Assembly: GCF_006874465.1 (NCBI RefSeq)
Contig: NZ_VIRL01000029.1
Location: 1 to 64,000 of the forward strand
Length of the DNA: 64,000 nt
DNA from: Microbispora bryophytorum
Lineage (GTDB): Bacteria > Actinomycetota > Actinomycetes > Streptosporangiales > Streptosporangiaceae
Direction: 5' to 3'
The translations under genes were made by a program, and so were the position numbers. A model generated the notes under the pieces. That model made no database searches and was not told the DNA's origin. It saw nothing but the letters and a program-made list of their open reading frames with translations. Shown here piece by piece: positions 2,274 to 38,136 of this stretch; position 1 is the stretch's first letter, and every line of letters begins with the position of its first letter.

Positions 2274-4672
2274 TCAAACATCCTGCCTTCGTCGTCGAGC
2301 CGTGGTCGGTGCGGGAGTGCCACCTGCACACCGACGTGCTCGCCCAGACCGAGTCGGTGTTCGCGCTGTCCAACGGGCACATCGGGTTGCGCGGCAACCT
2401 CGACGAGGGCGAGCCGTACGGGCTGCCGGGCACCTACCTCAACTCCTTCTACGAGCTGCGCCCGCTGCCGTACGCCGAGGCGGGCTACGGCTACCCCGAG
2501 TCCGGCCAGACGGTCGTCAACGTCACCAACGGCAAACTGATCCGGCTGCTCGTGGACGACGAGCCGTTCGACGTCCGGTACGGCACGCTGCACTCACACG
2601 AGCGCATCCTCGATCTGCGGGCGGGGACGCTCATCCGGAAGGCCTGCTGGAGCTCGCCGACCGGCGCGCAGGTGCGCGTCACCTCGACCCGGCTCGTGTC
2701 CTTCACCCACCGGGCCGTGGCCGCGGTCCGCTACGAGGTGGAGCCGGTGGACCAGCCGCTCAACGTGGTCGTCCAGTCGGAGCTGGTGGCCAACGAGACC
2801 GTGCCGCCGCCGACCGCCGACCCCCGCGCCGCCGCCGCGCTGGAGGCGCCGCTGGTGCTGGAGGAGAACGTCGCCGCGCGCAACAACGTGTGCGTCATGG
2901 TCCACTCCACCAGGGCCAGCAGGCTGCGGCTCGCCGCGGGGATGCGTCACGAGATCGACGGCCCGGACGGCACCCGGGTCGAGTGCGACGGCGGCGGCAA
3001 CGTCAGCCGGGTCACGATCGCCACCCGGCTCGTGCCGGGCGAGCGGCTGCGGCTGGACAAGTTCTTCGCCTACGGCTGGTCGGCCAAACGGTCCAGGCCC
3101 GCGATGCACGACCAGGTCGTGGCGGCGCTGGCGGCGGCCCGGCTCACCGGGTGGGACGGCCTGTGCGTCGAGCAGCGCGCCTTCCTCGACGATTTCTGGG
3201 CGGGCGCCGACGTCGAGGTCGAGGGCGACGCCGAGGTGCAGCAGGCCGTGCGCTTCGGGCTGTTCCACCTGCTCCAGGCGGGGGCCCGGCTGGAGCGGCG
3301 GCCCATCCCCGGCAAGGGACTGACCGGCTCGGGTTACGACGGCCACGCGTTCTGGGACACCGAGAGTTTCGTACTGCCGGTGGCCACCTACACCTACCCC
3401 CGGGCCGCCGCCGACGCCCTGATGTGGCGCGCCTCGATCCTGCCCCTCGCCCAGGCGCGGGCCGAGCAGCTCGGGCTGGCCGGGGCCGCCTTCCCCTGGC
3501 GGACGATCAACGGCGAGGAGTGCTCGGGATACTGGCCGGCGGGCACGGCGGCCTTCCACGTCAACGCCGACATCGCCACCGCGGTCACGCAGTACGTCGA
3601 CGCGACCGAGGACACCGGCTTCGAGCGCGACTTCGGCCTGCCGCTGCTCGTGGCGACCGCTCGGCTGTGGTGCGCGCTCGGCCATCACGACGCCGAGGGC
3701 CGCTACCGCATCGACGGCGTGACCGGGCCGGACGAGTACAGCGCCGTCGCGGACAACAACGTCTACACCAACGTCATGGCCCGGCGGAACCTGCGGGCCG
3801 CCGCCGCGGCGGCCATACGCCACCTCGACCAGGCCGAGCGGCTCGGGGTCACGCTGGAGGAGACAGCCATGTGGCGCGACTGCGCCGCCGCGATCCCCCT
3901 GCCGTACGACGAGCGGCTGGGGGTCCACGAGCAGAACGAGGGGTTCACCCGGCACGCGGTGTGGGACTTCGCGGGCACCGCACCCGAGCGGTATCCGCTG
4001 CTGCTCCACTTCCCCTACTTCGACCTGTACCGCAAGCAGGTCGTCAAGCAGGCCGACCTCGTACTGGCCATGCACCTGTGCGGCGAGGCGTTCACACCCG
4101 AGCAGAAGGCGCGCAACTTCGCCTACTACGAGGCGCTGACCGTGCGGGACTCCTCGCTGTCGTCGTGCACCCAGGCCGTGCTCGCCGCCGAGGTGGGGCA
4201 GCTCGACCTCGCCTACGCCTATCTCGGCGAGGCCGCGCTGATGGACCTGCGCGACCTGGAGCACAACACCCGCGACGGCGTCCACATGGCCTCGCTCGCC
4301 GGGGCGTGGATCGCGCTCGTGGCCGGGTTCGGCGGCATGCGGGCGGAGGGGGGACGGATCCGCTTCGCCCCCCGCCTGCCCTCGGGCATCACCCGGCTCA
4401 CCTTCCGCGTCCGCTACCGGGGCCGCCTGCTGCGGATCGACGTCACCCCGGACGGCACGACGTACCGGCTCCTGCACGGCAAGCCCCTCACACTGTCGCA
4501 CCACGGCGAGGAGTTCACGCTCGGCGCGCAGCCGCAGGCCCGGCGCAACGCGCCGGCGCCCTTCCCGGACCTGCGGGTCAGGCAGCCGCCCGGCCGCGCG
4601 CCCGCGCCCCGGCGGCCCGGGGACCTGTCCCGCGACGTCACCGGCCCGGACGAGCAGGCGCAGGAGCTCTGA
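2270..4672 (+). CDS. Glycoside hydrolase family 65 phosphorylase (maltose/kojibiose/trehalose type)
   Basis: The protein has 800 residues: an N-terminal beta-sandwich, an (alpha/alpha)6 barrel and a C-terminal beta domain. The catalytic acid is the Glu in VTGPDEYS (about residue 488), matching the Glu of characterised maltose phosphorylases. The substrate-binding FWDTESFVLP motif is near residue 363. GH65 inverting phosphorylases split alpha-glucobioses with phosphate into beta-glucose 1-phosphate and glucose. Coupling to a beta-phosphoglucomutase favours phosphorolysis over hydrolysis. The disaccharide (maltose, kojibiose, nigerose or trehalose) cannot be read from sequence. The last 45 residues are Pro/Arg-rich and look disordered. 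There is no signal peptide, so it is cytoplasmic. Confidence 0.92.
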   Translation: MIKHPAFVVEPWSVRECHLHTDVLAQTESVFALSNGHIGLRGNLDEGEPYGLPGTYLNSFYELRPLPYAEAGYGYPESGQTVVNVTNGKLIRLLVDDEPFDVRYGTLHSHERILDLRAGTLIRKACWSSPTGAQVRVTSTRLVSFTHRAVAAVRYEVEPVDQPLNVVVQSELVANETVPPPTADPRAAAALEAPLVLEENVAARNNVCVMVHSTRASRLRLAAGMRHEIDGPDGTRVECDGGGNVSRVTIATRLVPGERLRLDKFFAYGWSAKRSRPAMHDQVVAALAAARLTGWDGLCVEQRAFLDDFWAGADVEVEGDAEVQQAVRFGLFHLLQAGARLERRPIPGKGLTGSGYDGHAFWDTESFVLPVATYTYPRAAADALMWRASILPLAQARAEQLGLAGAAFPWRTINGEECSGYWPAGTAAFHVNADIATAVTQYVDATEDTGFERDFGLPLLVATARLWCALGHHDAEGRYRIDGVTGPDEYSAVADNNVYTNVMARRNLRAAAAAAIRHLDQAERLGVTLEETAMWRDCAAAIPLPYDERLGVHEQNEGFTRHAVWDFAGTAPERYPLLLHFPYFDLYRKQVVKQADLVLAMHLCGEAFTPEQKARNFAYYEALTVRDSSLSSCTQAVLAAEVGQLDLAYAYLGEAALMDLRDLEHNTRDGVHMASLAGAWIALVAGFGGMRAEGGRIRFAPRLPSGITRLTFRVRYRGRLLRIDVTPDGTTYRLLHGKPLTLSHHGEEFTLGAQPQARRNAPAPFPDLRVRQPPGRAPAPRRPGDLSRDVTGPDEQAQEL

Positions 4673-35202: not shown

Positions 35203-36390
35203 ATGACAAGGCCGTTGGACAGACTGCGCGCGGCCGCCGCGGAGCGGGAGTCGGCGGGCCTGCGCCGCGCCCTCCGTCCGCGCACGCCCGACCACGACGG
35301 CCTGCTCGACCTGGCCTCCAACGACTACCTGGGACTCTCGCGGGACGAGCGGCTCGTCGAGGCGGCCGTACGGGCCGTCCGGGAGTGGGGGGCGGGCTCG
35401 ACGGGCTCGCGTCTGGTCACCGGCTCCACCCGGCTCCACGCCGAGCTGGAGGACCGGCTCGCGGCGTTCACCGGAGCGGCCGGGGCCCTGGTGTTCTCCT
35501 CGGGCTACCTCGCCAACCTCGCCGCGGTCGCCGCTCTCGGGCGGGGCGGCCTGATCGTCTCGGACGCGGGCAACCACGCCTCGATCGTGGACGCCTGCCG
35601 GCTGTCGCGGGCGCGGGTCGTGGTCACGCCGCACGGAGACGTGGAGGCGGTGGACGAGGCCCTCGCCGAGCGTGCCGAGGAGCACGCCCTCGTGGTCACC
35701 GACGCCGTCTTCTCCGTCGACGGCGACCTGGCGCCGCTGCGCGCCCTGCACGAGACGGCCGTACGGCACGGCGCGCTGCTGGTGGTGGACGAGGCGCACG
35801 CGCTCGGCGTGGTCGGCGACCACGGCAGGGGCGCGGTGCACGCGGCGGGTCTCGCCGGATATACGGACATTGTGAGAACCATCACGTTGTCGAAGTCCCT
35901 GGGCTCCCAGGGCGGCGCCGTCCTCGGAGCCCCCGAGGTGATCGGCACGCTCGTGGACACCGGCCGGTCGTTCATCTTCGACACCGGCCTCGCACCGGCC
36001 TGCGCCGGTGCCGCCCTGGCCGCTCTGGAGATCCTGGAAACCACCGCCGACCTGCCCGGACGTGCGCGGCTCAGAGCCGGTGAGCTGGCCGCGCTGGCTC
36101 GCGAGCTCGGCCTTCCGACGGCCGATCCGGCGGCCGCCGTGGTGCCGGTCGTGCTCGGCTCGCCCGGGCTCGCCCTGTCGGCGGGAGCCCTGTGTGCGGA
36201 ACTCGGGGTCCGCGTGGGATGCTTCCGGCCACCATCGGTGCCTCGGGGCCGGTCCTGTTTGCGGTTGACCGCGAGGGCGGATTTGGGGTCCGATGATCTC
36301 GCGGTGGTCCGGGGTGCGCTCACCGCTGTGGCCGAGTTGACGATGTTGCCTGAGTTGGGCGATGTGGCCGAATTGAGGGTGGACAGGTGA
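35203..36390 (+). CDS. bioF: 8-amino-7-oxononanoate synthase
   Basis: The protein has 395 residues and is an alpha-oxoamine synthase of PLP fold type I. The PLP lysine is in [26 protein letters not shown] holds the Asp and His that contact the cofactor; NDYLGLS and STGSRLVTG mark the N-terminal part. It condenses pimeloyl-ACP or -CoA with alanine in biotin synthesis. ATG 35203 has AGGA 9 bp upstream; ATG 35194 is possible. The stop overlaps the GntR start by 4 bp (GTGA). bioA is not in the window. Confidence 0.93.
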
Positions 36391-37115
36391 CGGAGCACAG
36401 CGAGGACTCTCCCCGGGTTCCGAAGTACTACGACGTGAAGCGCAGTCTTCTGGAGCTCACCAAAAGCCTGCCCGCGGGCAGCGCGCTCCCGCCCGAGCGC
36501 ACCCTGGCGGTGCGCTTCGAGACCTCCCGGACGACGGTCCGGCAGGCGCTGTCGGAGCTCGTGGTCGAGGGAAGGCTGCTGCGCATCCAGGGCAAGGGCA
36601 CGTTCGTCGCCCAGCCCAAGGTCGCCCAGGTCCTCCAGCTCACCTCCTATACGGGCGACCTGCGCATGGTCGGCCTGGAGCCGGACACCAAGATCCTTGA
36701 CATCAGCTACATCACGGCCGACGAGGCGCTCGGGCGGCGGCTGGCCATCAACCCCGGCGGCCGGGTCCTGCGGATCCATCGCCTGCGCCTGGCCAACGGC
36801 GAGCCGATGTCCATCGACACCACGCACCTGTCCGCCCGCCGGTTCCCACGCCTGCGGCGCGAGATGGAGGTGCACTCCTCTCTGTACGAGACGCTGCACA
36901 ACGCCTACAACGTGCGGCTGACCGACGCCGAGGAGGTCATAGAGACCGTGCTCGCCACGCCGTACGACGCGCAGGTGCTGGGCGTGGACGTCGGCCTGCC
37001 CATGCTGCTGCTGACCCGGCACGCCTTCGACGCCGACGGCAACCCCGTCGAGTACGCCCAGTCGCTCTACCGCGGCGACCGCTACAAGTTCGTCACCCGC
37101 CTCCGCCGCCCCTGA
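36387..37115 (+). CDS. DasR-like GntR/HutC-family regulator with UTRA domain
   Basis: The protein has 242 residues: a GntR winged helix ([30 protein letters not shown], then GKGTFVA) and a UTRA ligand domain to the end. The stretch [16 protein letters not shown], the [23 protein letters not shown] block and the final [15 protein letters not shown] are nearly those of Streptomyces DasR, the GlcN6P-responsive master regulator of chitin/GlcNAc use. It is translationally coupled to bioF, an unexpected place for a DasR-type regulator. Whether it is the cell's main DasR or a paralogue cannot be told from this window. Confidence 0.88.
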
Positions 37116-37121
37116 CCCCCA

Positions 37122-37369
37122 CCCCCCGTGATCATGTAATTTGTCGCAGCACCCACATGTGACCTGCGAATTCACCATTTGTGATCTTGCAAAACAACGC
37201 TGGCCGCACGCCCGACCAGGCCATACACAGCTCGTGATCACGCAATTGCGTGATCACGAACGATGAACCGGCAGGCAGGCGGGATTTTCGGCCGATCTGT
37301 GCAAGATCACGAAAGGTGTCCGCACAGGCCAGCGGCACCACATGTAACAAATTACAAGATCACGGGGGG
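37122..37369. repeat. 248-bp nested inverted-repeat element (MITE-like or operator array)
   Basis: It lies between the DasR-like gene and bioD. The ends are 23-bp inverted repeats (37122-37144 and 37347-37369) that match at 22 of 23 positions. Inner inverted blocks (about 37160-37190 and 37301-37331) match at most positions and include TGTGATCTTGC/GCAAGATCAC. The centre is a perfect 26-bp palindrome (37233-37258). All pairs share one axis at 37245.5 without any length difference, although the spacers between them have diverged. GTGATC occurs in every block. No ORF or target duplication is evident. Confidence 0.8.
37233..37258. repeat. Perfect 26-bp palindrome at the centre of the element
   Basis: The half-sequence is CGTGATCACGCAA, followed by its exact reverse complement. 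Each half itself contains the smaller palindrome CGTGATCACG. It could act as a hairpin, a protein-binding site, or the core of a mobile element. Confidence 0.85.
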
Positions 37370-37413
37370 GTGTCGGGTGGTTCGGTGAGCGGGGGCGTTC
37401 TACTCTGCGGGGC

Positions 37414-38136
37414 GTGAGCATTCTGGTGGTGACCGGGACGGACACCGGAGTCGGCAAGACGGTGGTGACGGCCGCGCTCGCCGTTCTGGCCAGGGAGCGA
37501 GGCGCGACGGTCGCGGCCGTGAAGCCGGCGCAGACCGGGGTGGCGGCCGGGGAGCCCGGAGACCTCGACGAGGTGATCCGCCTGTCGGGGGTGACGACGA
37601 CCTTCGAGATGACGCGGTATCCCGATCCGCTCTCCCCCGCCGCGGCCGCCCGCGTCTCGGGCATGCCACCGCTGTCGCTCGCGTCTGCGGCGGCGCGCGT
37701 CGAGGAGCTGGCCGAGTCGCATCGGCTGGTGCTCGTCGAGGGCGCAGGGGGCCTGCTGGTCCGCTACGACGAGGAGGGCGGCACGCTCGCGGACCTGGCG
37801 CGGCGGCTGCGCGCCCCCGTCCTCGTGGTGGCGCGCGCCGCGCTCGGCACGCTCAACCACACGGCGCTGACACTGGAGGCCGTGGCGGGCCGGGGCCTCG
37901 ACCTGGCGGGCGTGGTGATCGGGTCCTGGCCGGCCGATCCGGGGCTCGCCGAGCGGTCGAACGTACCCGACCTGGAGATGCTCGCCGCCCGGCCGCTGTC
38001 GGGCGCGCTGCCGGAGGGCGCGGCCGCGCTCGGCCGAGAGGCGTTCGCCCGTGCCGCCCGCGCCGGACTCGCTCCCGCCCTCGGCGGCATGTTCGACCCG
38101 GCCGGCTTCCGTTCGACCCTTAGGCTGCCCCTGTGA
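37414..38136 (+). CDS. bioD: Dethiobiotin synthetase
   Basis: The protein has 240 residues. The P-loop GTDTGVGKT is at about 8-16, followed by the VKPAQTG substrate loop and the [24 protein letters not shown] region. It makes the ureido ring of dethiobiotin from DAPA, CO2 and ATP. The start is GTG 37414. It is separated from the upstream bioF-gntR unit by the 248-bp inverted-repeat element, so it may need its own promoter. bioB follows 34 bp downstream. Confidence 0.94.

Follow-up and report, generated by a model that had tools for sequence, protein, structure and literature searches.

The nuclease-plus-dispersed-repeat lifestyle is known from RAYT/REPIN, in which the RAYT is a Y1 (HuH) transposase and the REP is a palindromic repeat of 20-40 nt with a hairpin and a GTAG/CGTC tag. 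MITEs are short gene-less copies with inverted arms, and the ends of Mu/Tn7-type transposons carry several spaced protein sites per end. REP/REPIN with RAYT (PMC8049555) combines a nuclease-type gene flanked by repeats with dozens of solo inverted extragenic copies; further papers on these repeats are PMC3116915, PMC2817692 and PMC3733652. For the protein side, PMC3985639 reports that the streptococcal AbiEi binds inverted repeats and that repression depends on its wHTH, while Vsr endonucleases and the MTES_1575 REase are treated in PMC3710099.

We analysed a window of 64,000 nucleotides of Microbispora bryophytorum (the window being the whole stretch of DNA under study), in which a 248-bp element lies between a gntR gene and a gene that we take to be bioD-like. 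G and L numbers are genome and locus labels of this analysis, G000 being the genome that holds the window. The features are the following.

36387..37115, + strand: GntR-family regulator gene; stop codon 11 nt ahead of the first unit
37116..37126, + strand: C-rich outer flank, directly 3' of the gntR stop codon; similar flanks in most copies
37122..37369, no strand: entire solo array element; inverted arms with three units per arm, centre spacing 14
37127..37148, + strand: left outer unit, extended motif CGTGATCATGTAATTTGTCGCA
37161..37166, + strand: GACCTG box, 19 bp ahead of unit 2; box positions conserved between orthologs
37180..37192, + strand: left middle unit TGTGATCTTGCAA
37214..37219, + strand: GACCAG box, 19 bp ahead of unit 3
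37233..37245, + strand: left inner unit CGTGATCACGCAA, which makes up one half of the palindrome at the centre
37246..37258, - strand: right inner unit, the mirrored other half of that palindrome
37272..37277, - strand: TGCCTG box (GACCTG-like), 19 bp ahead of the right inner unit
37299..37311, - strand: right middle unit CGTGATCTTGCAC
37325..37330, - strand: GGCCTG box, 19 bp ahead of the right middle unit
37343..37364, - strand: right outer unit CGTGATCTTGTAATTTGTTACA
37365..37380, - strand: flank that is G-rich on the + strand (C-rich outward-in), mirroring the left flank
37414..38136, + strand: presumed bioD-like gene; start 49 nt past the last unit

The three nested pairs of inverted blocks around a common axis at 37245.5, as described in the original prediction, are indeed present. 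The outer pair (37122-37144 and 37347-37369, 23 nt) is 96% identical and the middle pair (37160-37191 and 37300-37331, 32 nt) 75% identical. The perfect central palindrome also exists, its size being 28 bp (37232-37259) and not the 26 bp first given. The whole 248 bp are 63% identical to their own reverse complement. A closer description of these blocks is that direct repeats with the core CGTGATCWTGYA and a 53-bp period are arranged in two inverted arms. Three units with the consensus CGTGATC(A/T)TG(C/T)A make up each arm, starting at 37127, 37180 and 37233 on the + strand and, in mirror order, at 37364, 37311 and 37258 on the - strand. A GACCTG-like box stands 19 bp ahead of each following unit, the outermost unit is a 22-bp extended motif, and C-rich/G-rich flanks accompany the element in most copies. 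In contrast to REP/REPIN, these are arrays of non-palindromic units at fixed steps, with no conserved hairpin and no GTAG/CGTC tag.

A BLASTn search of the element against its own genome and related genera, proposed at the outset as a check, returned many copies. In G000 there were 81 matches, the element itself included, and CGTGATCTTGCAA occurred at 203 sites with up to 2 mismatches, compared to 24 for the reversed control. Since the element recurs many times in its own genome, a chance pattern is excluded. Of 25 further G000 stretches that were fetched, one (L032) carried no array, and with the window this gives 25 array loci. Arms have mostly three units; some elements are one-armed (L009, L012, L029), and in a few (L015, L020) the arms stand 1.2-2.7 kb apart and enclose genes. 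Of 219 intervals between units, taken from G006 and from three G000 loci, 212 measured 52-54 bp. A sequence-only profile of two outer units (R1, from alignment A1) detected 44 half-arrays at E <= 1e-9 in G000, from whose loci it was built, and, at the same threshold, 37 in G005, 123 in G006, 44 in G008, 10 in G003, 28 in G064 and 80 in G113. At E <= 0.001, R1 matched 16/297 family genomes, in 6/68 genera. A pattern of two phased core units was found in 4/394 class genomes (G000, G329, G388, G447), with no control match among the rows listed. In a scan of viral contigs for two phased units, the 600-700 bases around each of the 2 matches showed internal repeats and no array, and both were taken as chance.

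Within the genus the arrays are patchy, 10/15 congeners being without clear arrays. One array place is shared across genera: behind a gene that we take to be sucD-like, Microbispora (L023, L181) and genus g37 (L161, L162) both have an array, with a genus-specific motif extension. Mismatches per 22-nt motif averaged 1.63 at the fetched G005 loci, 1.80 in G000 and 2.5 at 4 G003 sites; motif quality is thus not visibly worse in G005 than in G000, and is worse at the G003 sites. A second dispersed, GC-rich repeat (GGCGCGCCTCCGGCACGAC-like) was observed in the gntR-bioD gap of M. catharanthi (L034, ~3726-4000) and beside a one-armed array in G000 (L012, ~2845-2950).

The position between gntR and bioD could suggest an operator array for a local biotin regulator, either the adjacent GntR or a repressor of the BirA type. 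However, copies follow dozens of unrelated genes, and two named Microbispora records (L033, L034) have a GntR 99% identical to that of the window and yet no array. A biotin-specific operator was accordingly set aside, as next to negligible in probability, and the biotin cluster is incidental because copies follow so many unrelated genes. The original prediction had held that array-less bioD upstream regions in relatives, together with no second copy in any genome, would argue for chance or a degenerate remnant. None of 80 related gntR loci carries an array, but the many further copies remove that argument. Without an array the gntR-bioD distance is 7-25 nt in 6/8 relatives shown, ~130 nt in L036 and ~290 nt in L034.

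A structured RNA between the two genes, also among the readings first offered, or an intrinsic terminator, would be favoured by the predicted folding of the window transcript (z -8.1) and by one terminator-like stem with a T-rich tail on the minus strand (37219-37200), located in a spacer (1 compared to a shuffle mean of 0.3). The strong predicted fold of the window copy is, though, explained by arms that are inverted and repeated. Spacers of the two arms are not complementary beyond chance: those of the same element match at 0.360, against 0.383 between elements (52 elements; 1924/2000 permutations as high). Covariation, which was to be sought among copies, did not appear, no pair having changes on both sides. 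There was no Rfam match in the window at gathering scores, and a scan of the window copy gave no terminator on the plus strand behind gntR. Since the spacers of the two arms do not pair, this is a DNA-level element and not a hairpin RNA, and an RNA function seems very improbable.

The arms of L015 give access to a candidate partner. In G000 they enclose a gene present in a single copy (G000:C137:244597-245565), between two inverted arms of the same repeats, and its product, like that of the gene between arms in G388 (L271), matches both AbiEi and REase_MTES_1575 models. Pfam AbiEi_1 was over the cut-off in L015 and L271, and AbiEi_4 in L271; PF18741 was over the cut-off in G000, G006 and G008 and below it in G388 (L271) and G329. 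In all five genomes the gene is an open frame of 324-333 codons, each located between inverted arrays. No gene of that size was found by PF18741 in G010 or G001, and in G005 PF18741 matched only within a 1825-codon frame. The PF18741 match in G113 is an unrelated 368-aa protein and not the partner homolog. Between arrays in the same genome (L357 2987-3600) we observed ~113 N-terminal residues, 72-73% identical to the Microbispora proteins, which look from their sequence like a truncated N-terminal piece, as if the nuclease part had been lost.

The structure predicted for the protein (mean pLDDT 87.3, pTM 0.84) had as its top Foldseek match, on this model, the AbiEi antitoxin 6y8q (E 4.5e-5). 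The C-terminal part matched Vsr (1cw0, 1vsr) and the homing endonuclease I-Bth0305I (3r3p), with E 0.08-0.44 and probability 0.96-0.99, and residues E193, D225, E236 and D238 are invariant in 10 alignment rows. Judged by sequence and model, the C-terminal domain has a Vsr/MTES_1575-type fold with conserved acidic residues and is a putative nuclease. The protein therefore resembles the type IV toxin-antitoxin AbiE by its predicted AbiEi fold and by the inverted-repeat binding of AbiEi, and Vsr, the MTES_1575 REase and I-Bth0305I (PDB 3r3p) by its predicted C-terminal nuclease fold and invariant acidic residues. Unlike in AbiE, the AbiEi part is fused to a nuclease domain, no AbiEii toxin was found beside it between the arms of L015, where the ORF list shows a single likely gene, and there are tens of arrays instead of one operator. 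Unlike a Vsr-like homing endonuclease, the gene is not inside an intron or a coding target and is linked with repeat arrays. It differs from RAYT as well, no Y1/HuH transposase match being found between the arms (L015, L271), nor a match to any transposase family.

Another reading of this gene is a defence or addiction device. The arrays would then serve as a mark of self or as a sink for the nuclease, which would be set free when arrays are lost or foreign DNA enters. The head of the protein matches PADLOC AbiEi models and the nuclease domain weakly resembles the ends of giant anti-phage proteins (in 3/4 proteins scanned). But the AbiEii partner is missing between the arms of L015, two congeners have arrays without the gene, and no phage homologs of the G329 protein were found, so that we regard such a device as unlikely. 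When a plasmid collection was searched with the G000 protein, two records matched. One, from Nonomuraea (46% identity over 79%, E 1e-50), is probably a chromosome, given its size of 11.85 Mb; the other is a plasmid of Tsukamurella (36% over 64%, E 6e-11). Elsewhere in G000, a 2355-codon frame (L297, G000:C49:456015-456308) contains a strong MTES_1575 domain (112 bits) with no array units beside it, and is perhaps a giant anti-phage protein.

Association of gene and arrays was counted in the genus, with a profile from a five-protein alignment and the threshold also applied to the family (E <= 1e-20). Among the 15 genus genomes the gene was found only in G000, G006 and G008, all of which have arrays; two have arrays without the gene (G003, G005), one a weak trace without the gene (G004), nine have neither, and none has the gene without arrays. 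That the three gene carriers all fall among the five array carriers has a chance of 0.022 if relatedness is ignored. The gene-less array genomes, G005 with 37 half-arrays and G003 with 10, were counted against a nuclease-array reading; arrays without the gene in G005 may reflect recent loss, a missing piece of the draft or a gene-independent function. Also counted against it was G132 (g37), which has arrays and is absent from the homolog-matching genomes. In the family, a homolog occurs in 184/297 genomes and R1-type arrays in only 16/297. The next-ranked homologs, those of four g37 genomes (L312-L315), have arrays of the g37 motif on both sides, and the g65 homologs L317 and L318 have motif copies on both sides, mainly in direct order (the proteins of L313 and L318 were left out of alignment A3). 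At one further homolog, L316 (G055), a single flank carries two GATC-core units that point in opposite directions, and this may be a reduced array.

At the level of the class, a homolog at E <= 1e-30 was found in 178/394 sampled genomes. The flanks of 29 of the 30 best class loci (our own gene was left out; G329 and G388 were already known) and of 30 family loci were tested for shared repeats. Inverted flanks scored z > 4 at 32/59 loci, 22/29 in the class, where the loci are the best-scoring and not a random draw, and 10/30 in the family, the genes of G126, G096 and G067 being counted twice among the 59. Direct-orientation flanks scored z > 4 at 9/59 loci. Two of these nine, L329 and L378, are truncated by the end of the contig, and their high scores look like artefacts that arise where the flanks overlap. 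At least four shared inverted 10-mers were present at 16/30 class and 6/30 family loci, compared to 2/222 control windows (gntR loci). Among 20 lower-ranked family loci (L319-L338), only L338 passed z > 4, with another type of flank repeat. Other flank repeats were also seen at the homolog of L372 (G060), where they are strongly inverted, and those of L338 (G139) are mixed direct and inverted.

The motifs vary by lineage, from GATC-core types to unrelated ones (e.g. L373, L374, L383, L386). In most arrays read the spacing is 21-22, 31-35, 44, 53 or 62-63 bp, near whole helical turns; this is not so everywhere, since the arrays at the G329 gene have steps of 35-38 bp and those at the G388 gene varied steps of 32-54 bp. 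Array labels, assigned by hand, cluster on the protein tree, where L365, L372, L377, L379, L381 and L387 are marked 'none' yet pass z > 4 in the flank test. Divergence of motif and protein correlate weakly (Mantel, seven lineages, motifs typed by hand; 412/5040 permutations reach the observed value). Solo arrays of the own motif of G642 were not found in a 400-kb sample, a tenth of its contig, and dispersal is therefore seen only for GATC-core lineages.

Taken together, we think it fairly probable that this is a class-wide actinobacterial system, in which each AbiEi-Vsr nuclease has a private motif, repeated mostly at whole helical turns within the inverted arms that flank the gene, and in which some lineages seed gene-less arrays behind stop codons that are kept by selection. 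It would be a RAYT/REPIN counterpart made of unrelated parts.

The dispersed arrays sit at gene 3' ends. With genes predicted by a simple codon-bias script, the 25 array loci of G000 comprise 12 convergent, 10 tandem, 3 split and 0 divergent cases, and the 61 of G006 comprise 27 convergent, 27 tandem, 1 divergent, 3 split and 3 incomplete. Divergent neighbours (0/22 in G000 and 1/55 in G006) are thus rare compared to adjacent gene pairs in the same fetched loci (20/117 and 13/131, respectively). A co-directional stop codon lies within 70 bp of 36/48 half-arrays in G000 and 79/110 in G006, and for 12 and 28 of these stop-proximal half-arrays, respectively, the motif itself supplies the stop as its TGA; the half-array list behind these and the ortholog counts includes one chance site pair in L011 (1855, 1906). 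In G329, G388 and G447 this preference is looser, the 16 distinct loci comprising 6 convergent, 7 tandem and 3 divergent arrangements. TAA stops were enriched at arrays (48/115 co-directional stops, compared to 82/425 predicted genes, these included), and were often followed by C-rich stretches.

Selection on blocks and spacing rather than on spacers, as suggested originally from the symmetry, was borne out by comparison of orthologous elements. In the congener G006, an array stands at the same place for 22/25 G000 elements, the exceptions being L010, L016 and L027; for the window element only the gntR side is common, bioD not adjoining there. Between the two genomes, motif identity is 0.964 for outer units (42 comparisons) and 0.932 for inner units (81 comparisons), spacer identity 0.711 and 0.734, respectively, and identity at fourfold-degenerate sites of flanking genes 0.804 (6662/8289, 56 gene comparisons). 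Spacing is identical in 26/42 arms, and the others are off by 1-2 bp or by one unit gained or lost; the 42 include one pair of sites that arose by chance. Since motifs are more alike than fourfold sites, and these more than spacers, the spacers are free while motifs and spacing are held. Element spans also tend to be phased to the DNA helix. For the total spans of 48 elements, R was 0.67 at 10.5 bp. The commonest class alone, however, also raises R at other periods (0.38-0.55), and the fair figure is therefore that of the 24/48 spans outside this class: R 0.44 at 10.3-10.5 bp (p about 0.009), the highest among 16 periods tried from 7 to 15.

Gain and loss were followed at the 39 loci with an array in G006 only. 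Queries with 24 of them located 19 sites in G000, and 20 sites were fetched from G010; both flanks align at 15/19 and 14/20 sites, respectively, the others resting on the left flank. No intact array was found at these counterparts. The best profile score at an empty site was 15 bits (L228, G000), and the corresponding site of G010 (L247) shows a weaker trace; these are one decayed remnant common to both genomes, and a clear remnant is present at 1/19 G000 sites. At several sites the element replaces the stop codon and a short intergenic stretch.

The inverted arms, the many copies and the patchy presence in the genus would fit an ordinary MITE of an unknown transposon. Of this reading, which was also among those first proposed, one part stands: the element is a dispersed copy without the gene that is found between arms elsewhere. 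Its other marks are lacking. There was no target-site duplication signal, the longest word shared by the two flanks averaging 4.40, against 4.48 with flanks swapped (48 elements, 45-bp outer flanks). Among the 141/158 G006 half-arrays compared, only one pair of elements appears to be a recent copy (L180/L198, 0.86 and 0.81 in the two arms; all-pairs mean 0.63), and no recent copying is visible in G006 because, except for this pair, the copies are mutually unlike. Motifs are conserved at fixed places with free spacers, and the gene between the arms gave no match to a transposase family; we consider an ordinary MITE improbable. The Mu/Tn7 type differs likewise, as no such transposase was found between the arms and the arms are nearly the entire solo element.

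A domesticated regulator deserves more weight, although we hold it to be doubtful. Here the AbiEi-nuclease, or some other protein, would bind the arrays and block traffic from both sides where genes end, and the arrays would define transcript ends between convergent genes, as host-serving sites and not as a spreading element. The stop-codon proximity of half-arrays and the rarity of divergent neighbours agree with this, as do motifs conserved at fixed places while spacers drift, the one place kept across genera, and the C-rich stretch behind the stop codon. On the other hand, the element of the window locus (L001) parts genes that are 7-25 nt apart in six of the eight relatives shown, and that of L201 parts genes for which only 5 bp separate the aligned flanks in G000; at such places, termination would be expected to damage the gene that follows. 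In addition, the ten congeners without clear arrays manage without them, three of the 16 loci in G329, G388 and G447 lie between divergent predicted genes, and termination alone leaves the array-flanked nuclease gene unexplained.

An array of sites for one DNA-binding protein, among the possibilities raised originally, is the best-supported reading. More precisely, we propose, with a probability of about two in three, that an AbiEi + Vsr-like endonuclease has a two-armed array as its cognate DNA, and that the window element is a solo copy of such an array, lacking the gene. The analysis shows the array family itself, the spacing and position of its members, selection on the motifs and a link between gene and arrays that extends to distant lineages. 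As to binding, cutting, copying or movement and any benefit, we infer the following course. The winged-helix AbiEi part would bind each 53-bp-phased unit on one helix face; since the units are phased, several proteins could bind one face of the DNA. Each arm would load a row of proteins, and the two arms would face each other around the gene or the centre. The nuclease part may then introduce a cut or nick at the arms or next to them. Through repair or gene conversion, new places would thereby receive copies of the arms, either alone or together with the gene. New copies would be tolerated mainly just behind stop codons, where sites and spacing would then be kept by selection, probably since a bound array is useful or harmless at gene ends.

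Such a system works like RAYT/REPIN: one nuclease-type gene is flanked by repeats, dozens of solo inverted copies are dispersed outside genes in the gene's own genome (G000, G006), and persistence is vertical with a patchy presence. It is not a member, as it shares neither the protein nor the repeat type. Among the papers listed in literature searches, there was no description of such a nuclease-repeat system, no paper with both DUF559 and AbiEi, and no assigned role for AbiEi-headed Vsr-like nucleases.

The reading explains dozens of intergenic elements in these genomes, and suggests that nuclease and repeats form a so far undescribed system, one that may spread or may act where genes end. 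The private arrays give each AbiEi-Vsr protein a predicted DNA target, which makes its role directly testable. If true, this would be a second, independent origin of the nuclease-plus-dispersed-repeat lifestyle known from RAYT/REPIN.
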